A program made the position numbers and the translations under genes. DNA of 64,000 bases from Pseudomonas eutrophicaquae. Its GTDB lineage: Bacteria; Pseudomonadota; Gammaproteobacteria; Pseudomonadales; Pseudomonadaceae. Location: NCBI RefSeq assembly GCF_023544715.1, contig NZ_JAMJEZ010000008.1, forward strand, positions 62,001-126,000. Reading direction: 5' to 3'. Under the pieces are notes generated by a model that was given only the letters and a program-made list of their open reading frames with translations, had not been told where the DNA came from and did not search any database. Positions 6,883-25,206 of the stretch are shown piece after piece (within the stretch, counting starts at the first letter, position 1; the number at the start of each line of letters is the position of its first letter).

Positions 6883-8289
6883 TCAGCCCGGATCATGAAA
6901 CGTCGCCCGCGCGCTCGCGGATGGACGCACGGTAACCCGCGCTGAAGTGGCCAGGTCGATGCCCTCGCTGGCCACCTCGGCGAGAAAGTCGATCTGCTCT
7001 AGGCTGATCACGTAGGGCGGCAGGAAGTACACCACGCTGCCCAGCGGGCGCAGCAGCGCACCACGGCGCAGCGCATGCTGATAGACCACCAGCCCACGGC
7101 GCTCCTGCCACGGATAGGGCGTCTTGCTGGCCTTGTCGGCGACCATCTCGATGGCCAGCGCCATGCCGGTCTGGCGTACCTCGGCAACGTGCGGATGCTC
7201 CTTGAGGTGCTCGGTGGCGTGGCCCATGTGCGCGGCCAGCGCCTGGTTGCGCACGATCACGTCGTCTTCGGCGAAGATGTCCAGGGTTGCCAGCGCCGCG
7301 GCGCAGGCCAGCGGGTTGCCGGTGTAGGTGTGCGAGTGCAGGAAGGCCTTGAGGGTCGCGTAGTCGGCGTAGAAGGCCTGATAGACGGTATCGGTGGTCA
7401 GCACCGCCGCCATCGGCAGGTAGCCGCCGGTCAGTGCCTTGGAGAGAATCAGAAAATCCGGCGTGATCCCCGCCTGTTCGCAGGCGAACAGCGTGCCGGT
7501 GCGGCCGAAGCCGACGGCGATTTCGTCGGCGATCAGGTGCACGCCGTAGCGGTCACAGGCCTCGCGCAGCAGGGTCAGGTAGATCGGGTGATACATGCGC
7601 ATGCCGCCGGCGCCTTGGATCAGTGGCTCGACGATCACCGCGGCGATCTCCTGATGATGCTCGGCGAGGGTCTGCTCCATGTGCGCGAACATGGTCCGCG
7701 AATGCGCCTCCCAGCTCACTCCCTCGGGGCGCAGGTAGCAGTCGGGGCTCGGCACCTTGAAGGTATCGAGCAGCAGCGGCTTGTAGGTGTCGGTGAACAG
7801 CGCCACATCGCCCACCGACATCGCCGCCATGGTTTCGCCGTGGTAGCTGTTGGTGAGGGTGACGAAGCGCTGCTTGCGGGTCTGGCCGGCGTTGCGCCAG
7901 TAGTGGAAGCTCATCTTCAGCGCCACCTCAATCCCCGAGGAGCCGTTGTCGGCGTAGAACACCCGCTCCAGCCCCGGCGGGGTGAGCGCCACCAGGCGCT
8001 CGGACAGCTCGATCACCGGTTGATGGCTGAAACCGGCGAGCATCACGTGCTCGAGGCTATCCAGCTGCTCACGAATCCGTGCATTGATCCGCGGGTTGGC
8101 GTGGCCGAACACGTTGACCCACCAGGAGCTGACCGCATCCAGGTAGCGCTTGCCATCGAAGTCCTCCAGCCACACGCCGGAGGCGGAACGGATCGGGATC
8201 AGCGGCAGCTGCTCGTGGTCCTTCATCTGCGTGCAGGGGTGCCAGAGCACGGCCAGATCGCGCTCCATCCAGTGCTGGTTGTGGCTCAT
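6883..8289 (-). CDS. bioA: Adenosylmethionine-8-amino-7-oxononanoate aminotransferase
   Basis: 468-aa class-III PLP aminotransferase that makes 7,8-diaminopelargonate in biotin synthesis, using S-adenosylmethionine as amino donor. Visible are the N-terminal LWHPCTQMKDHE and SSWWVNVFGHANPRI (substrate pocket), YHGETMAAMSVGD, IADEIAVGFGRTGTLFACE and the PLP lysine in LSKALTGGYLPM. The start at 8289 has GGAG upstream and matches the family start; the in-frame extension to 8373 looks like untranslated leader. The gene stands apart from other bio genes. Confidence 0.97.
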   Translation of the reverse strand: MSHNQHWMERDLAVLWHPCTQMKDHEQLPLIPIRSASGVWLEDFDGKRYLDAVSSWWVNVFGHANPRINARIREQLDSLEHVMLAGFSHQPVIELSERLVALTPPGLERVFYADNGSSGIEVALKMSFHYWRNAGQTRKQRFVTLTNSYHGETMAAMSVGDVALFTDTYKPLLLDTFKVPSPDCYLRPEGVSWEAHSRTMFAHMEQTLAEHHQEIAAVIVEPLIQGAGGMRMYHPIYLTLLREACDRYGVHLIADEIAVGFGRTGTLFACEQAGITPDFLILSKALTGGYLPMAAVLTTDTVYQAFYADYATLKAFLHSHTYTGNPLACAAALATLDIFAEDDVIVRNQALAAHMGHATEHLKEHPHVAEVRQTGMALAIEMVADKASKTPYPWQERRGLVVYQHALRRGALLRPLGSVVYFLPPYVISLEQIDFLAEVASEGIDLATSARVTVRPSASARATFHDPG

Positions 8290-16890: not shown

Positions 16891-17035
<145 letters not shown>

Positions 17036-17044
<9 letters not shown>

Positions 17045-17093
17045 TTTGGTCACAGCTTCTCGGTTGGTTGAACTGCTGGTCACAGCTTCTCGA
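17036..17093 (+). repeat. Left-arm integrase site candidates (GGTCACAG repeats)
   Basis: Three direct copies of GGTCACAGCT begin at 17036, 17048 and 17078; the last two extend as GGTCACAGCTTCTCG. The same sequence occurs three times at the other end of the element next to the integrase gene. Position and orientation fit arm-type sites of a tyrosine recombinase. Confidence 0.55.
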
Positions 17094-17236: not shown

Positions 17237-17560
17237 TCACAGCCCCAACTGCTCGACGATCTCCTCCGGCCCGGCACCACGTCGCAGCAGTCGGCGCGCA
17301 GCAGTGACCAGCCGCTCGACGGCGCGGGCCTCGGCGCGATCTGCCAGGGTCACAGCATGGCGGGCTATCGCCTTGGCGATCAGCGCCGGGTTGGTGTCAG
17401 GCGCCAGCATGGCCAGCGCCTCCCGGCTGGCCTGTGCCACGGTCTGCTGCTCGATGCGCTCCCCCTCTGCGGCGGCGGCTCGGGCGATCCGGGCAGCCAG
17501 CGCCAAGGGGATCGGCTCGGGCTGGCGCTCGGGCAGGTAGTCGCGGCGGATGATGCTCAT
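17237..17560 (-). CDS. Element protein of unknown function, MSII-RDYL family (long form)
   Basis: 107 aa beginning MSIIRRDYLPERQPEPIPL and ending RRGAGPEEIVEQLGL. It is predicted all-helical, Ala/Arg-rich, with no membrane segment. The start at 17560 has AGAGAGG upstream and matches the start of the 67-aa protein at 18145-18348, with which it shares both ends; this copy has about 40 extra middle residues. I recognise no family. It is the last gene before the left attachment site and is flanked by two related palindromes. A DNA-binding or replication-accessory role is possible but unsupported. Confidence 0.65.
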   Translation of the reverse strand: MSIIRRDYLPERQPEPIPLALAARIARAAAAEGERIEQQTVAQASREALAMLAPDTNPALIAKAIARHAVTLADRAEARAVERLVTAARRLLRRGAGPEEIVEQLGL

Positions 17561-17976
17561 GGGCTGGCCTCTCTGGCGGTTGGTGTTGGTGCCGGTTACT
17601 GCAACGGTGATGTAACGGCACTGAGCGTTACCAGGCGCGGGGTGATCCCGCCACCTACCCGCTGGCAATGTACGATTTTCGTACTTTAAAACCCCGAATT
17701 CCGGGTATTTACGGAAGCCCTCGCGCGCACGCGCGCGCACAACGGGAAATTTCCGGGTTTGCGATGAAAGAAAGGGGACGGGGCGGTATTGCTGCGGGGA
17801 CCCTCAGACTTTTGCACCGCCCTCCCGCCTCGAAAAAACGCGGCGGGTCCTTCCCAGCGTAATCCGCTCCCGCTGGGGGGCGGGTGATCCAGCCGCCAGC
17901 GGCGGGCAGATGGCCGTGACCTGCTGGCGTCCGTCTGCTGGGCTATGCTCCAGATCCACCAAGGGAGGCACTGAAC
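17561..17976. other. Gene-poor stretch with inverted repeats
   Basis: No convincing gene. It contains GTAACG/CGTTAC (17612-17631), the palindrome at 17670-17684, an AT-richer patch (17665-17720) and an alternating CG/CA run (17721-17740). A 64-codon frame on plus from 17668 starts inside the palindrome and has no ribosome site. The stretch probably holds the promoters of the flanking divergent genes. Confidence 0.5.
17670..17684. promoter_or_regulatory. Palindrome GTACGATTTTCGTAC
   Basis: 15-bp inverted repeat about 110 bp upstream of the 107-aa gene start. It shares TACGA/TCGTA half-sites with the palindrome at 17161-17183, suggesting one protein binds both. Confidence 0.5.
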
Positions 17977-18144: not shown

Positions 18145-18348
18145 TCACAGCCCCAGCTGCCAGCGGACTTGCTCGATGGTCTGGCCGACTCGCAGGTGGC
18201 GGCGGGCCGCGTGGATCATTTCATCTAGCGCCTTGTCCTCGAACTCCTCCGCCATCGTGGCAGCCTTGCGGGCGATCAGCAGCGCCAGCTCAGGCGGGAA
18301 CTCCACCGGCTTGACCGGCTCTAGGTAGTCGCGTTCGATGATTGACAT
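18145..18348 (-). CDS. Element protein of unknown function, MSII-RDYL family (short form)
   Basis: 67 aa, beginning MSIIERDYLEPVKPVEFPP and ending GQTIEQVRWQLGL. Shares with the 107-aa protein at 17237 the N-terminal MSII-RDYL block, an IAR-AA helix, an AARR-LR segment and the terminal QLGL, so the two are paralogues. Soluble, helical and acidic in the middle. It converges on the 49-aa membrane gene with 18 nt between stops. Function unknown. Confidence 0.65.
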   Translation of the reverse strand: MSIIERDYLEPVKPVEFPPELALLIARKAATMAEEFEDKALDEMIHAARRHLRVGQTIEQVRWQLGL

Positions 18349-18679: not shown

Positions 18680-19453
18680 TCAGTCCATTGGTGTGTTGTC
18701 ATACCGCTGGCGCAGATCAGCACCAGCGGCGCAGTAGCGGCCCGTGGCGGCATGGCAGGCGCGGCAGGTCATCAGGTGGCTGGTGTATGCCGCATCAGCT
18801 TCTTGCCAGGCTGCAGACGCCGTTGCGGCGGTGCGGGTGAACCGCTGCGGCTCGACCTCCTCCTCGACGATGCGCTCGACCGGCTGCTCGACCGGCTGCG
18901 GGCGGTTGATCCATGCCGGGCTGCTGCGGATCGTGTCGGCGACCTGACTCGCATCAGTACCGGCCAGCCCGGCAAGGTCGTGCTGCTCCAGATGCCCGCC
19001 TTCCAGCAGCTCGGCAGGCCGGGTGCCGAGCAGACGGGCGACACGGGCAAGCCAGACGCTCGACGGTGGCGGCGGTGATGCAGGCGCAGCGAGGGTGCCA
19101 GCCAGCGCCTTGACGATCTCCTCCTCAGCGAGCAGACGCTCGACACCAGGAACGGCCACCGGCTCGACGCGCGCAGCAGCCACGCCGAAAACCGGGCGAT
19201 CCGCTCCAGTGATGCCGCACTGGATAACCTCGCCGCTATCCTGCAGCAGCAACCACAGCCAGGTGCTCGACGGCATCGGATCGTTGGCGGCGGCGACCAG
19301 CAGCTCGACCAGCTCGACCTTGTGCGCAGTCAGATCAGCGAGCAGGTCGGCGGACGGCTGGCGCTCGGCACGCAACAGCAGCCGCCCATCCTGCCCGACC
19401 GCCATCTCGACGCCGGCCTCGGTAGCGCGGCGGATCAGCTCGGCGGCGGTCAT
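18680..19453 (-). CDS. Element protein with TubC_N-like N terminus and Cys-rich tail
   Basis: 257 aa. Residues 1-50 (MTAAELIRRATEAGVEMAVG to VELVELL) resemble the TubC_N/docking-like helical domain found in some element and primase-linked proteins. The middle is Pro/Glu-rich. The tail carries HLMTCRACHAATGRYCAAG, a Cys/His cluster that could bind zinc. The ATG at 19453 overlaps the stop of the DUF3987 gene as ATGA, so it is the last gene of the replication operon. A replication-accessory role is inferred from context only. Confidence 0.65.
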   Translation of the reverse strand: MTAAELIRRATEAGVEMAVGQDGRLLLRAERQPSADLLADLTAHKVELVELLVAAANDPMPSSTWLWLLLQDSGEVIQCGITGADRPVFGVAAARVEPVAVPGVERLLAEEEIVKALAGTLAAPASPPPPSSVWLARVARLLGTRPAELLEGGHLEQHDLAGLAGTDASQVADTIRSSPAWINRPQPVEQPVERIVEEEVEPQRFTRTAATASAAWQEADAAYTSHLMTCRACHAATGRYCAAGADLRQRYDNTPMD

Positions 19454-21126
19454 AGCGACAGCTCCCACTGCTCATCGGCATCTGCGGACGCCGGGGGCTG
19501 CGGATTCTGCGGATTCTGCGGAAGGCCGCGTGGTTGCTGGGTTTCAGCTTGCGGAAGGTTTGCGGAAGTTTGCGGAAGCTCTGCGGAAGCCGGACGGGCT
19601 GCGGGGGTGATCCGCGCAACTTCCGCAACTTTCCGCAAATCTTCCGCAATCGCAAAGCCGCGTGGCTGCTGGGTTTCCGCAGAATCCGCAGCTTCCGCAA
19701 GGGGGTTGAGCCTGAATTGCTTGCCGTCGCTGCTCAGAAGGTGGTGATGCCGCACCAGGACAGCGAGAACCCGGTCGCGCACCTTGGCCGAACGCATCGC
19801 AGCCGGCCCCGACTTGCCCAGGTCATTGGCGTGGAACTCCCCCCACTTCTTCACGCGCTTCTGGTCGCGCAGCCAGGCCATAAGCTCGACGGCCTTCTGC
19901 AGATCAGGATCAACCGCGCCGGCATCGGTGTAGCGCAGCCATTCGCTCAGGGAGTAGCGCGCCAGGGCGCACGCGCGGCGCATGCAATCGCCGTCGATAT
20001 GCTCGATACCCTCGAAGCAGCCCAGCACGGCAGCCAGGCGCAACGCCTGCTCGGCTCCTCGACGGGCAAACGGTTTCAGGCCGGAGAACTTGCCGAGCGG
20101 CCCGAGGTCGCTTTCGATCTCGTTGCGGAAGCTCACCCATGCCTGCTTTGCCTCTGCATCAGGCATCAGCACGGGCGGCGCGACCTCGCCGGTTTCCGGG
20201 TCGATATGCTCCGGGCTGGCGGCGATCTCTTTGCAGCGCGACCAGTACGCTTGCAGACGCGGGTCGGCATAGGCGCTGCGCTCCAGTGACTCGACGGTGA
20301 TGAAGCAGGTTCCCGCCAGGCTATCCGGTGCGGCGAGCAGGAAGCGCGCCAGGAAGCCTTGCCCGATCAGCAGTGGATTGCTCAACGTCTCGGCAACGGC
20401 TACCGGCTGCGCCAGCAGGTGAATGCTCAAGCGGCGGTTGTAGGCCACGCCTGAGCCTTCCGCGTTGCCCTTGGAGCGGGTGCGCTCGAAGTGGCCATCG
20501 TCAAAGCCCTTGGTCAGCCCTCCGAGTGTCGCGCCCACGGTGTCAGACTTGAGCGAGTGACCGCCTAGCATCTGCCCGCCTTCGTCCGTGTCCCAGCTCG
20601 CCGCCGGCATGCCTCGGATGAAGTCGCCGGCCAGCGGCTCGAAAGTCGCATCGCTGTATTGGGTCTTGGGATCGGGCGGCAGCGGATGGGCGGCCAGGAA
20701 CTCCTCACGCGCCTTGCCCTTCAGCCCGGCAGCCATTGCCTCGACCTCCGCGCAGGCTTGGCGCCAGCGGGTGCGCGCCTCCTTTTCCGCTTCGTCGATT
20801 GTCTTGAAGGCCAGCTTCCGCGCGCTCGACTTGCCTTCCCCAGAGCCGAACAGCGACAGCATGAACAGCGAGCAGGACGCACCTCCCGTCCTGCCCATCG
20901 GGTGCCATGCGTTGACGCGGGTCTGCGCCAGGTGGGTGACTGCGCCGACAACGCACTGCCCAGCGATGGCGGCAGGCACCATTGCGTGCTCGACGATGGC
21001 CTCGACTGCGCGGCGCATTTCGTAGGTCAGGGCGTCTACCGGGTAGGGTGTCGGCGGCGCGGTGTCCGGCAGCAACGGTTGCGGTGCCGGCCCGGTCTGA
21101 ATCTCAGTCATCAGTGGCGCAGTCAT
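19450..21126 (-). CDS. DUF3987-type ATPase/helicase-like protein
   Basis: 558 aa. The N-terminal half has a P-loop, LFGSGEGKSSARK (about residues 88-100), then SWDTDEGGQML, in the arrangement of DUF3987/YfjI proteins that accompany Toprim primases in phages and satellites. The last ~90 residues are low-complexity and contain AETQQPRG twice. That part is encoded over the TTCCGCA array at 19499-19699. The ATG at 21126 overlaps the Toprim gene stop (ATGA). Likely an ATP-driven replication protein of the element; actual helicase activity is inferred. Confidence 0.8.
   Translation of the reverse strand: MTAPLMTEIQTGPAPQPLLPDTAPPTPYPVDALTYEMRRAVEAIVEHAMVPAAIAGQCVVGAVTHLAQTRVNAWHPMGRTGGASCSLFMLSLFGSGEGKSSARKLAFKTIDEAEKEARTRWRQACAEVEAMAAGLKGKAREEFLAAHPLPPDPKTQYSDATFEPLAGDFIRGMPAASWDTDEGGQMLGGHSLKSDTVGATLGGLTKGFDDGHFERTRSKGNAEGSGVAYNRRLSIHLLAQPVAVAETLSNPLLIGQGFLARFLLAAPDSLAGTCFITVESLERSAYADPRLQAYWSRCKEIAASPEHIDPETGEVAPPVLMPDAEAKQAWVSFRNEIESDLGPLGKFSGLKPFARRGAEQALRLAAVLGCFEGIEHIDGDCMRRACALARYSLSEWLRYTDAGAVDPDLQKAVELMAWLRDQKRVKKWGEFHANDLGKSGPAAMRSAKVRDRVLAVLVRHHHLLSSDGKQFRLNPLAEAADSAETQQPRGFAIAEDLRKVAEVARITPAARPASAELPQTSANLPQAETQQPRGLPQNPQNPQPPASADADEQWELSL
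19499..19699. repeat. Iteron-like array of TTCCGCA in two opposed blocks
   Basis: On the plus strand TGCGGAA starts at 19517, 19550, 19561, 19571 and 19582, with TGCGGAT at 19499 and 19508. In the opposite orientation TTCCGCA starts at 19621, 19631, 19642, 19675 and 19693, with ATCCGCA at 19684. Spacings are 9-9-33-11-10-11 on the left and 10-11-33-9-9 on the right, a mirror pattern about 19604. A direct repeat containing CTGGGTTT sits in each 33-nt gap. Replication-origin iterons are the leading idea. Confidence 0.7.
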
Positions 21127-22115
21127 GCCCGGCCCTCCGTCCACAGGTGCAAATCGTTGAAGTCGCTCAGATGCAGCGGCGCGTCATCCGGCCAGGCCGG
21201 CAGGACGTACCCGCAACCGAGCTGAGCAGCCGCATGGATCGCCGCCAGCTTGCCCGCGTTGGGCTTGCCCTCGGCTTCCTTGGCGCGGTCATCGTCACCG
21301 CCGACGATCAGCACGGCATCGGGATAGCGGCGCTTCAGCTCAAAACCGGCTGGCAGCAAGTTTCCCGAACTCATTGCAGCGGCCACCGGCTTGCCGGTCT
21401 GCTCGTGCAGGGTGGCGGCGGTGGCGATGCCCTCGACGATCAGCAGCTCGACGCCGGCCTCGATACGTCCGAACGGGCAGTAGCAGCCGGTGATCCTCCC
21501 GCCAGGCAGGAACCGCTTGGAGCCATCGGCAGTGATGCGCTGAAGGTTGACCACTTCCCCGCGCCAGCAGATCGGAGCGAGCAGCAGGTCGCCGAGCTGG
21601 CGCAGGTGGTGCGGCCTGATGCCCTTGCGGGCCAGGTACGGGTGATCGGGGTCAGGCAGGCCAGCGAGGGCGAAGTCGCGACGTGCTCGGGCGGCAGCAC
21701 GATCCCAGCCGGCCTGCCGCTCTGCGTCGGCCTTGCGCTGGCGCTGGTCACGCTGGCGGGCGATGCGCTGGCGCTCGGCCTCCTCGGCGAGCAGGTCGCG
21801 CTTGGGCAGGTCGCCGCCGAACGGCAGTCCGAGCTGCTGGGCAATCATGCGGGCGGCATCGGCCTGCCGGCAGCCGCGCAGGTAGGCCAGCAGCGATACA
21901 AGGTCGCCGCCTTTGTCGCCGCTGGCGAAGTCGAGCCAGGTGCCGGAGTGCAGGTTGATGCTGAAGCTGCCCGGCTGGCGGTCGCCGCGTACCGGGTTGG
22001 TCGGCCAGTACTCTTTCCCCTTGCGGGTGCCGTCCGGCAGCCAGTCGGCGAGCAGGTGGTCAGCCTGCTGCAGAGCGGCATCAGCGATGCGCTGAATCTC
22101 GAAGTGAAGGGTCAT
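21123..22115 (-). CDS. Toprim-domain DNA primase
   Basis: 330 aa. The first ~100 residues carry GSFSINLHSGTWLDFASGD, a zinc-less analogue of the primase N-terminal module common in satellites. Residues about 200-300 form a Toprim domain with the acidic Glu in LLIVEGIATAATLHE and the Asp cluster in VLIVGGDDDRA. It probably primes replication of the excised element together with the DUF3987 protein downstream. It overlaps that gene by ATGA and the upstream 79-aa gene by one base. Confidence 0.85.
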   Translation of the reverse strand: MTLHFEIQRIADAALQQADHLLADWLPDGTRKGKEYWPTNPVRGDRQPGSFSINLHSGTWLDFASGDKGGDLVSLLAYLRGCRQADAARMIAQQLGLPFGGDLPKRDLLAEEAERQRIARQRDQRQRKADAERQAGWDRAAARARRDFALAGLPDPDHPYLARKGIRPHHLRQLGDLLLAPICWRGEVVNLQRITADGSKRFLPGGRITGCYCPFGRIEAGVELLIVEGIATAATLHEQTGKPVAAAMSSGNLLPAGFELKRRYPDAVLIVGGDDDRAKEAEGKPNAGKLAAIHAAAQLGCGYVLPAWPDDAPLHLSDFNDLHLWTEGRA

Positions 22116-22354
22116 CAGTGCAGGCCCTCCGGCGCTTCGTGAACGTCCAGGCGGGCAGCGTCCAGAGCCTTGAGCAGCGTGTCACGACCCAAGCCCTTGG
22201 CTTGCAGGATCGTGCTCAGGCACAGCCAGGCGGCCATCGTGACAACTTCGGACGGGGTGTTGCTGGCGCGGGCATAGCCGACGATCAGCGGGAGTAACTG
22301 CTCGAAGATGAACGGCTCGTGATCCTCGACGCGGTGGGTGGTGTAGGTGGTCAT
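22115..22354 (-). CDS. Small element protein of unknown function (79 aa)
   Basis: Begins MTTYTTHRVEDHEPFIFEQL and has two amphipathic helices, no membrane segment and no motif I recognise. Its stop shares one base with the primase ATG, and its ATG overlaps the stop of the 51-aa gene, so it is translationally coupled inside the replication operon. Confidence 0.65.
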   Translation of the reverse strand: MTTYTTHRVEDHEPFIFEQLLPLIVGYARASNTPSEVVTMAAWLCLSTILQAKGLGRDTLLKALDAARLDVHEAPEGLH

Positions 22355-24907: not shown

Positions 24908-25030
24908 CTTGTAATCAGTAGTTCACGGGTTCAACTCCTGGTGCCGGCACCAATAAAATCAACGACTTAGGCTCGCAGCGATGCGGGCCTTTGTTGTTTC
25001 TGGGGTCAGATGCCCCGATTTGCTCACAGT
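24908..25030 (+). repeat. Right attachment repeat with tRNA-Thr 3' fragment (attR-like)
   Basis: 24908-24951 is a 44-nt copy of the tRNA-Thr 3' half ending CCA, with three changes. The downstream terminator hairpin is copied exactly. There is no acceptor 5' arm or promoter, so it is not a functional tRNA gene. Confidence 0.85.
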
Positions 25031-25206
25031 TTCTCGACCTCGACCAGTGGCTCGACGATCTCCCCAACGCCGATCTCGCCGGCCAGGGTGGTCGATTCCA
25101 TGCGTACCCGCTCGACCGGCAACTGCTGAGCGTCCCTCCCTGCGGCCAGCGCAGCACTGCCGCCAGCGCCCGGATCAAGATCATGAGCATCCCTCTTGAT
25201 CATCAC
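25024..25206 (-). pseudogene. Gene remnant beyond the right attachment repeat
   Basis: A 60-codon frame ending EIVEPLVEVEKL. A decayed frame at the same relative place inside the left end of the element (stop at 17080-17082) ends LVEGLVEVEKL, so both derive from one ancestor. Its N terminus MMIKRD is vaguely like the MSII-RDYL proteins. Probably the residue of an older, related element. Confidence 0.4.

Follow-up and report, generated by a model that had tools for sequence, protein, structure and literature searches.

A mirrored heptamer array at the 3' end of a DUF3987 helicase gene: a putative replication origin of a Pseudomonas satellite-type element

The window analysed here is a stretch of 64,000 nucleotides from Pseudomonas eutrophicaquae (contig NZ_JAMJEZ010000008.1), and positions are given within it. 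It carries an island of ~8 kb at a tRNA-Thr gene, bounded by a 125-nt repeat, whose genes include those for a Toprim primase (P0002) and a DUF3987 helicase-type ATPase (P0001). Within the last 86 codons of the minus-strand DUF3987 gene lies an array of heptamers in two opposed arms. We estimate at roughly 80% the probability that a small integrated element of satellite type uses this array as its replication origin, probably bound by the element's own helicase. An earlier note, made from the letters of the window, had proposed a candidate replication origin selected at the DNA level, and this proposal is supported by the kept spacing of the repeats, by heptamers that do not behave neutrally and by a position like that of origins in phage-inducible chromosomal islands (PICIs) and Staphylococcus aureus pathogenicity islands (SaPIs). 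The note had placed the array at the end of the primase and ATPase genes, which is right as to the 3' end of the DUF3987 gene, but the array is inside that open reading frame (ORF), not after it. Comparison with relatives adds a further finding: the repeated word changes as a set under a nearly constant ruler of spacings, in step with the region of the helicase that probably reads it.

The array and selection on its DNA

All ten exact copies that had been claimed, five of TGCGGAA and five of TTCCGCA, were located (Table 1), as were the three claimed one-base variants, to which the previously unlisted TGCGGAC can be added as a fourth; 14 TCCGCA/TGCGGA cores are counted in the array. The spacings of 9-9-33-11-10-11 and 10-11-33-9-9 were also given correctly. 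The suggestion that neighbouring copies share a helix face holds for copies 10 or 11 bp apart, but not for the outer triplets, whose 9-bp steps carry successive copies gradually round the helix. The TTCCGCA/TGCGGAA heptamer occurs 19 times in the 64 kb, compared with a mean of 9.1 in shuffled sequences (at least 19 in 0 of 100 shuffles), and 10 of the 19 copies fall inside 183 bases. When the density of 7-mers was scanned over the whole 64 kb in windows of 201 bases with a step of 67 bases, no such window outside the array exceeded five copies of any 7-mer.

Selection acts on the DNA of the array. Synonymous codons were permuted with the protein held constant, either across the whole gene or within the tail alone (20,000 draws each), and the tail then contained on average 0.44 or 2.07 heptamers, respectively; the ten present were reached in 0 of 20,000 draws either way. 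The copies occupy codon phases 1 and 2, in agreement with the earlier argument that repeats in different phases point to selection on DNA, and more than one phase is used in 27 of 28 loci with in-frame copies. Nor do the heptamers vary at synonymous sites as neutral sequence would. Among nine close members (the window and loci L005-L011 and L013; L012 was left out owing to its stop codon), identity at fourfold-degenerate sites is 94.4% in heptamers (n = 786), compared with 52.9% in the other parts of the tail (n = 340) and 61.8% in the rest of the gene (n = 7,693), and amino-acid identity is 59.0% in the tail versus 77.7% in the rest. The low-complexity tail, with its NPQNPQ and two ETQQPRG copies, could suggest a protein-level repeat (an LPQ/NPQ linker) or a neutral minisatellite. 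Such an origin of the pattern is contradicted by the codon permutation and the fourfold sites, by the multiple codon phases, by arrays that lie outside the ORF and by set-wise replacement of the word, and its probability is negligible.

Relative to the stop codon, the array lies wholly in the ORF in 24 of 37 loci, straddles the stop in four (L012, L030, L032, L034) and lies wholly after it in nine. In Halopseudomonas formosensis (L012), an in-frame TAA (near 7422) ends the DUF3987 protein within the first arm, and the remaining array is intact. We take the sequence to do double duty where the ORF runs through the array; in relatives, the same array is retained outside the ORF.

Two side observations concern the encoded tail. 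A direct, rather than inverted, near-repeat encodes ETQQPRG in both arms (19525-19545 and 19657-19677), and the spacers therefore break the mirror symmetry. Judged by eye, 21 of 24 proteins whose ORFs traverse the array have an aromatic residue among the last eight and a terminal L, I, V or F (DUF3987 protein ends such as WELSL, FRGEI, FEEF and YGGEL; in the window, the site is 19450-19480). This aromatic end may be a partner-binding tip, which would explain why the ORF is kept open through the array.

Recurrence of the array: one ruler, many words

Relatives of the DUF3987 protein were collected by protein search from named records (8) and from genomes of the same family (24 of 399, E 1e-60), order (30 of 390) and class (14 of 369, both E 1e-30), each of the three genome tallies counting the window's own genome. 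A tblastn search of a phage collection with P0001 gave no match, and a close-relative scan of viral contigs with P0001 found none; a profile scan then gave 19 viral-contig loci. L014, L015 and L016, apparent duplicates of L008, L011 and L012, were counted once, and L137, L139 and L182 were dropped as duplicates, while some near-copies stay (for example, L033 with L028 and L190 with L151). A cluster was defined as at least five copies of a 7-mer in 260 bp, above the maximum of 60 dinucleotide shuffles and no more than 450 nt from the 3' end of the gene. By this definition, a de novo 7-mer cluster is present at the 3' end of the DUF3987 gene in 53 of 97 loci, whereas at least five copies occur in a control stretch 500-1400 nt upstream in only 2 of the 97. 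Three of the positives (L154, L164, L180) look like simple repeats. Among relatives with both the Toprim and the DUF3987 proteins, the close ones keep the heptamer spacing. The earlier note's expectation of heptamer blocks in related elements is thus borne out for close relatives, but the heptamer is not universal, being replaced as a set, and some DUF3987 relatives lack an array.

Counted from the innermost copy outward, the copies of an arm lie at 0, 10, 21, 55, 64 and 73 (or 54, 63 and 72 for the last three), mirrored in the other arm, and a variant with one extra copy runs 0, 11, 21, 32, 65, 74, 83; six or seven copies make up a typical arm. This ruler was surveyed in 38 loci using copies with at most one mismatch. 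L003, L019, L021, L027 and L031 show exactly 0-10-21-55-64-73 on both arms, with six copies each, and L136 and L140 follow a variant of it. Near-copies that are missing or additional shift L007, L010, L023 and L024, and the fit is poor or confined to one arm in L018, L032, L034, L138, L145, L146, L151 and L186. At the best split, the mirrored orientation is complete in 29 of 31 loci. The words differ by clade (TTCCGCA, TTCGCCA, TGTCGCA, TGTCGCC, TTAAGCA, TTGCACA, TTAGTCA and others) and switch as a set between related elements. Spacers match those of the window's right arm at 5-10 of 29 positions in L019, L003, L021, L143, L185 and L031, at 9 of 31 in L136 and at 16 of 37 in L169. Spacing is thus mostly conserved where neither the word nor the spacer is. 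With the word changing under a constant ruler among DUF3987 relatives, the ideas of TTCCGCA as a widespread fixed origin word and of a host factor were therefore dropped.

The array sits at the junction of two overlapping genes, DUF3987 and its downstream partner P0003, and its arms are inverted repeats, as might be expected of an operator or RNA element (repressor sites or an mRNA hairpin) of the DUF3987-P0003 operon. However, the arms in the window are complementary at 41 of 42 iteron positions but at only 22 of 51 spacer positions, and spacer complementarity over ten loci is 28-51%, where 25% is expected at random. A hairpin is therefore not the main conserved feature, and was rejected in that role. 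Twelve or more sites in two opposed sets are also unusual for an operator, and we judge regulation of this kind to be very improbable. The array could instead be a copy-control, incompatibility or partition site, with the true start of replication elsewhere. Plasmid iteron arrays also govern copy number, and at least 12 copies exceed a minimal binding site. Yet no partition family was found among nine element ORFs scanned with Pfam, a second comparable cluster is not seen in the 64 kb, and the recurrence of the cluster at the helicase 3' end, with a word that tracks the helicase C-terminus, argues against such a site, which is quite improbable.

Similar arrays are found beyond DUF3987. Phased triples of TTCCGCA were detected in 85 viral stretches, compared with 9 for a reversed-word control, and 80 of the 85 (L042-L121) were analysed further. 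In 23 of these 80, an ORF of at least 500 aa has its 3' end within 60 nt of the cluster, while the corresponding count for 5' ends is 0 of 80. All 23 ORFs belong to two protein clusters, with Prim-Pol/AAA_25 (21 loci) and D5_N (2 loci) representatives. Fetching relatives of the Prim-Pol protein by protein alone gave 31 loci, and in six of these the gene leaves the contig. Around the gene's 3' end, 24 of the other 25 loci have at least six copies of one 7-mer, compared with at most 3-5 copies in a control stretch 600-1500 nt upstream; the exception, L234, comprises the first 108 residues only. This set includes many near-copies, and some of its contigs were first found by the motif. Measured from the first base of the stop codon, the main group of copies starts at 3-11 nt; L218, L220, L221 and L222 have two extra copies ~150-160 nt within the ORF, and the words are TTCCGCA-type, TGGAGCA, TGTCCCG, TGTCGGA and TTCCGAC. 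A scan for D5_N returned only the two contigs already known. In IMG/VR, Prim-Pol/AAA_25 and D5_N phages (L204-L233, L102, L094) have phased heptamer arrays, with several different words, from a few bases up to some tens of bases past the stop codon of the primase-helicase gene. Profile comparison, used to ask whether DUF3987 and Prim-Pol proteins share ancestry in their C-terminal regions, detected no relation (probability 0.2%).

These phages bear on a packaging (pac/cos-like) or excision-related site that would be read by a protein of the helper phage or of the element. Satellites require packaging sites, and a terminase is nearby on some array-bearing phage contigs. However, the array-bearing Prim-Pol phages have at least two families of large terminase (L054, L085 and L102 versus L056, L072 and L075), and their arrays stay at the primase-helicase 3' end, and word and helicase vary together among DUF3987 elements; a packaging function is extremely improbable. 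As a tentative design rule, which we think may well not hold in general, DUF3987, Prim-Pol/AAA_25 and D5_N helicases could keep private 3'-end origins on a common ruler, with about six iterons per arm for each hexameric ring, and the word and its reading domain would be replaced together, producing many orthogonal initiator-origin pairs. Origin-targeting defences, or competition among elements that share a cell, might drive such a turnover of word and reader.

The probable reader of the heptamers

Candidate binders listed earlier were the DUF3987 protein, a 257-aa protein and AlpA. The covariation of the word with its C-terminal region favours the DUF3987 protein, which is likely to be the reader of the heptamers. 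Among 20 dereplicated proteins, identity in region 405-490 predicts a shared word with an area under the curve of 0.855, versus 0.744 for identity in residues 40-400. Trees were built from 42 of 53 proteins, leaving out L006, L008, L009, L010, L033, L138, L173, L177, L181, L184 and L190 as near-copies, fragments or doubtful. The ATPase-region tree places L019 and L185, which have TGTCGC words, among TTCCGCA members (support of 83 for a group of ten rows and 94 for a group of nine) and pairs L025 (TTCCGCA) with L036 (TGTCGCA; support of 97). The C-terminal tree unites all 12 TGTCGC members in a single group (support of 97), with L025 outside it, beside TTCCGCA members in a placement that lacks resolution. 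Three proteins thus appear to be chimeras: L019 and L185 combine a window-like ATPase with a TGTCGC array and LQREGP, and L025 is the reverse. At positions corresponding to window residues 443-447, GK[SA]GP, GK[SA]WP or GKSGY is found in the ten TTCCGCA members from Pseudomonadaceae in the tree, and QR[EDL]GP in all 12 TGTCGC members; among TGTCGC rows outside the tree, L033, L173 and L177 have QR and L138 has TR.

Residues 401-490 of P0001 are probably a DNA-binding, winged-helix-like region. When the C-terminal region was searched in isolation against Pfam, the window protein gave no match, L021 matched an IclR helix-turn-helix (HTH) family at E 0.16 and L136 matched the winged-helix family DUF6293_C at E 0.0039, below the cut-off. 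A profile search of solved structures with this region returned nothing useful (best E 0.68).

The array might also be an origin that is read by a host protein or by P0003, AlpA or the 79-aa protein instead of DUF3987. P0003 adjoins the array, and its gene was found in seven of eight close relatives. However, words differ among elements of one bacterial family, and a fixed host factor is therefore disfavoured. Moreover, P0003, AlpA and the 79-aa protein have no tblastn match in one, five and four, respectively, of the eight array-bearing relatives, although this is not a full test. A reader other than the DUF3987 protein is accordingly unlikely.

Known systems, the element and its replication

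Origins of PICIs lie immediately 3' of the replication gene and consist of two iteron sets flanking an AT-rich stretch, and the pri-rep-ori segment of EcCICFT073 has been cloned to test plasmid maintenance (PMC6092414). The array resembles these origins in its site 3' of a replication gene and in its two iteron sets, here two opposed arms; it overlaps the end of the gene in the window and straddles or follows the stop codon in other members. The element itself has the layout of a Gram-negative PICI (PMC6092414), with an integrase, an AlpA-like protein (HTH_17 above and the AlpA family below cut-off), primase and replication genes in one transcription direction, and a specific attachment site. 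Unlike PICI origins (PMC6092414), the system uses Toprim and DUF3987 proteins, has its array in the initiator ORF, lacks an AT-rich centre in the window and in most close relatives, and keeps a mirror ruler across many words.

The C-terminal domains of SaPI Rep and of Cch2, from staphylococcal cassette chromosome mec (SCCmec), recognise repeats just downstream of their own genes (PMC7581432). A helicase C-terminal domain may likewise read short repeats at the end of its own gene here, as the covariation and the three chimeras suggest, but the helicase family and the hosts are different, and Cch2 uses three 5-nt iterons rather than at least 12 heptamers in two mirrored arms (PMC7581432). RepA of the PICI-like elements (PLEs) of V. 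cholerae is a RepA_N protein without a predicted helicase and uses three ~30-bp semi-palindromic iterons (PMC8263062, PMC7145576); a Pfam scan of nine element ORFs shows DUF3987 and Toprim and no RepA_N initiator. Pressure from an origin-directed nuclease has been shown for PLE (PMC8263062, PMC7145576), and is just a possibility for the window element. As in the O gene and ori-lambda of phage lambda (PMC3985674), the iterons lie in the initiator coding sequence in the window and 23 others of 37 loci. However, lambda has four 19-bp iterons, uses the host DnaB helicase and has no mirrored two-arm heptamer ruler (PMC3985674), whereas the window has heptamers. Phage-inducible chromosomal minimalist islands (PICMIs) of Vibrionaceae have an integrase, an AlpA-type protein and a replication gene that is identified through DUF3987 or DUF5906, with a reference element of 6,110 bp (PMC10803314). 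The window element is similarly small and has an integrase, an AlpA-type protein and a DUF3987-type replication gene, but PICMIs integrate beside fis, and their search model requires a Fis regulator (PMC10803314), whereas this element is in tRNA-Thr and no Fis family (PF02954) was found among the nine element ORFs scanned. The DUF3987 domain is a predicted helicase (PMC5862659).

If the array is an origin, the element would be excised by its integrase and AlpA-like protein, as the gene content suggests, and the winged-helix-like C-terminal region of DUF3987 would recognise the heptamers, as covariation supports. By analogy with SaPI Rep, the opposed arms, with six or seven copies each, might seat one helicase ring apiece, giving two oppositely facing rings. 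DNA could then melt at or near the centre, the Toprim protein would prime, and host polymerase would copy the circle.

Several observations weigh against the array as an origin or against DUF3987 as its reader. No cluster satisfies our definition in 44 of 97 DUF3987 loci, and the fairly close L035, L142, L149 and L152 are plainly negative. The 44 include 10 remote DUF3987 proteins (L158-L168 without L164), 13 loci of a phage group (L188-L203 without L190, L192 and L200) and several that fall just short at four copies, among them L018, which was kept in the TTCCGCA class with one exact and nine near copies. The A+T fraction of the centre is 0.22-0.38 in the window and eight close relatives, unlike the AT-rich region between PICI iteron sets; it is higher in L012 (0.59) and in the distant L136, L143 and L186 (0.67, 0.68 and 0.80). 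As for the reader, a test of independent pairs had just three pairs (two concordant, none discordant and one tie; p 0.5), and a two-residue specificity code, GK versus QR, was rejected, as the TTCCGCA members L145, L146 and L169 have other residues. The reading region also adjoins the array, and co-transfer by one crossover would therefore link them too. The winged-helix fold of the C-terminal region is one that we only infer.

L138 (NZ_CP043577.1) is a circular 19,249-bp record from P. putida, with DUF3987 and a TGTCGCC cluster just past its stop codon. Its annotation, which is incomplete, lists no other replication gene, and a Pfam scan of 8 of its 18 further ORFs (at least 70 aa) found none either. 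A circle in which DUF3987 is the only recognised replication gene is suggestive support for an origin. L138 also carries restriction-modification-type genes and an AIPR-family gene. The Psychrobacter plasmids pA37P2 and pA52P5 (L136, L137) contain a block of integrase, HTH and DUF3987 genes, whose TTAAGCA array follows the DUF3987 stop codon in its entirety. They are no proof of replication by DUF3987, because their own repM is also present, and the block is perhaps an element nested in a plasmid.

Features of the island are listed in Table 1. The P0003 gene begins within the end of the DUF3987 gene, an overlap of 19 bases that makes translational coupling possible. Of the two 79-aa proteins, the HTH protein also matches Phage_AlpA, at 0.026, under the family cut-off. 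Searches of the eight close relatives by tblastn found the Toprim and DUF3987 genes in all eight and the AlpA-like gene in three, and the integrase is 75-86% identical in three and ~26% identical in four, with none detected in L012. Both flanking repeats contain an identical terminator-like hairpin (16983-17004 and 24969-24990) just beyond the tRNA part.

Table 1. Coordinates of the island, its genes and the heptamer array in the window
Feature	Position	Strand	Details
tRNA-Thr (TGT), integration target	16891..16966	+	ARAGORN; Rfam RF00005
Left 125-nt flanking repeat (att side), overlaps 3' part of tRNA	16922..17046	.	94% identical to 24908-25032
167-aa ORF	17237..17740	-	No family above cut-off
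67-aa ORF	18145..18348	-	No family
P0003, 262 aa, downstream partner gene	18680..19468	-	tblastn match in 7/8 close relatives; no Pfam family above cut-off
DUF3987 helicase-type ATPase P0001, 564 aa, proposed initiator	19450..21144	-	Pfam DUF3987 2.6e-49 (residues 56-404); PHROG DNA helicase 5.7e-31
Array arm, TGCGGAA on + strand	19482..19588	+	Variants TGCGGAC 19482, TGCGGAT 19499 and 19508; exact 19517, 19550, 19561, 19571, 19582
Centre of mirror array, G+C-rich	19589..19620	.	A+T 0.22 and 0.26 in two measurements
Array arm, TTCCGCA on + strand	19621..19699	-	Exact 19621, 19631, 19642, 19675, 19693; variant ATCCGCA 19684
C-terminal region of P0001, residues 401-490 (LGKSGP at 442-447), overlaps first array copies	19675..19944	-	Covariation with word
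Toprim primase P0002, 330 aa	21123..22115	-	Pfam Toprim_3 4.3e-08; PHROG DNA primase 1.4e-50
Second 79-aa protein	22115..22354	-	No Pfam/PHROG family; tblastn matches in 4/8 close relatives
AlpA/excisionase-like HTH protein, 79 aa	22510..22749	-	Pfam HTH_17 2e-07; PHROG 66 excisionase and regulator 4.3e-08
Tyrosine integrase, 498 aa	23278..24774	-	Pfam Phage_integrase 2.5e-10, Phage_int_M 1.2e-07
Right 125-nt flanking repeat, far island end	24908..25032	.	Repeat search

Among the matches listed by searches of open-licence papers, none described the array or its ruler, and the term "iteron" is absent from the main text of the DUF3987 papers PMC10803314 and PMC5862659. New here is a putative origin that is like those of SaPIs and PICIs, but that lies in the initiator ORF and has no AT-rich centre in most close members. 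It provides a testable candidate origin and initiator for DUF3987 elements, which are present across Gammaproteobacteria genomes and whose ATPase is still labelled as of "unknown function" by Pfam. The collection of over 30 putative natural origins, a count that includes near-copies, combines one ruler with many words and would allow study of how a self-loading helicase counts its sites and reads them, and of which residues set specificity. The pattern can also serve in annotation, as a simple signature of putative origins in satellites and Prim-Pol phages. If our interpretation is true, it would be a further case, in another helicase family, of an initiator whose coding sequence also contains the origin that it acts on.

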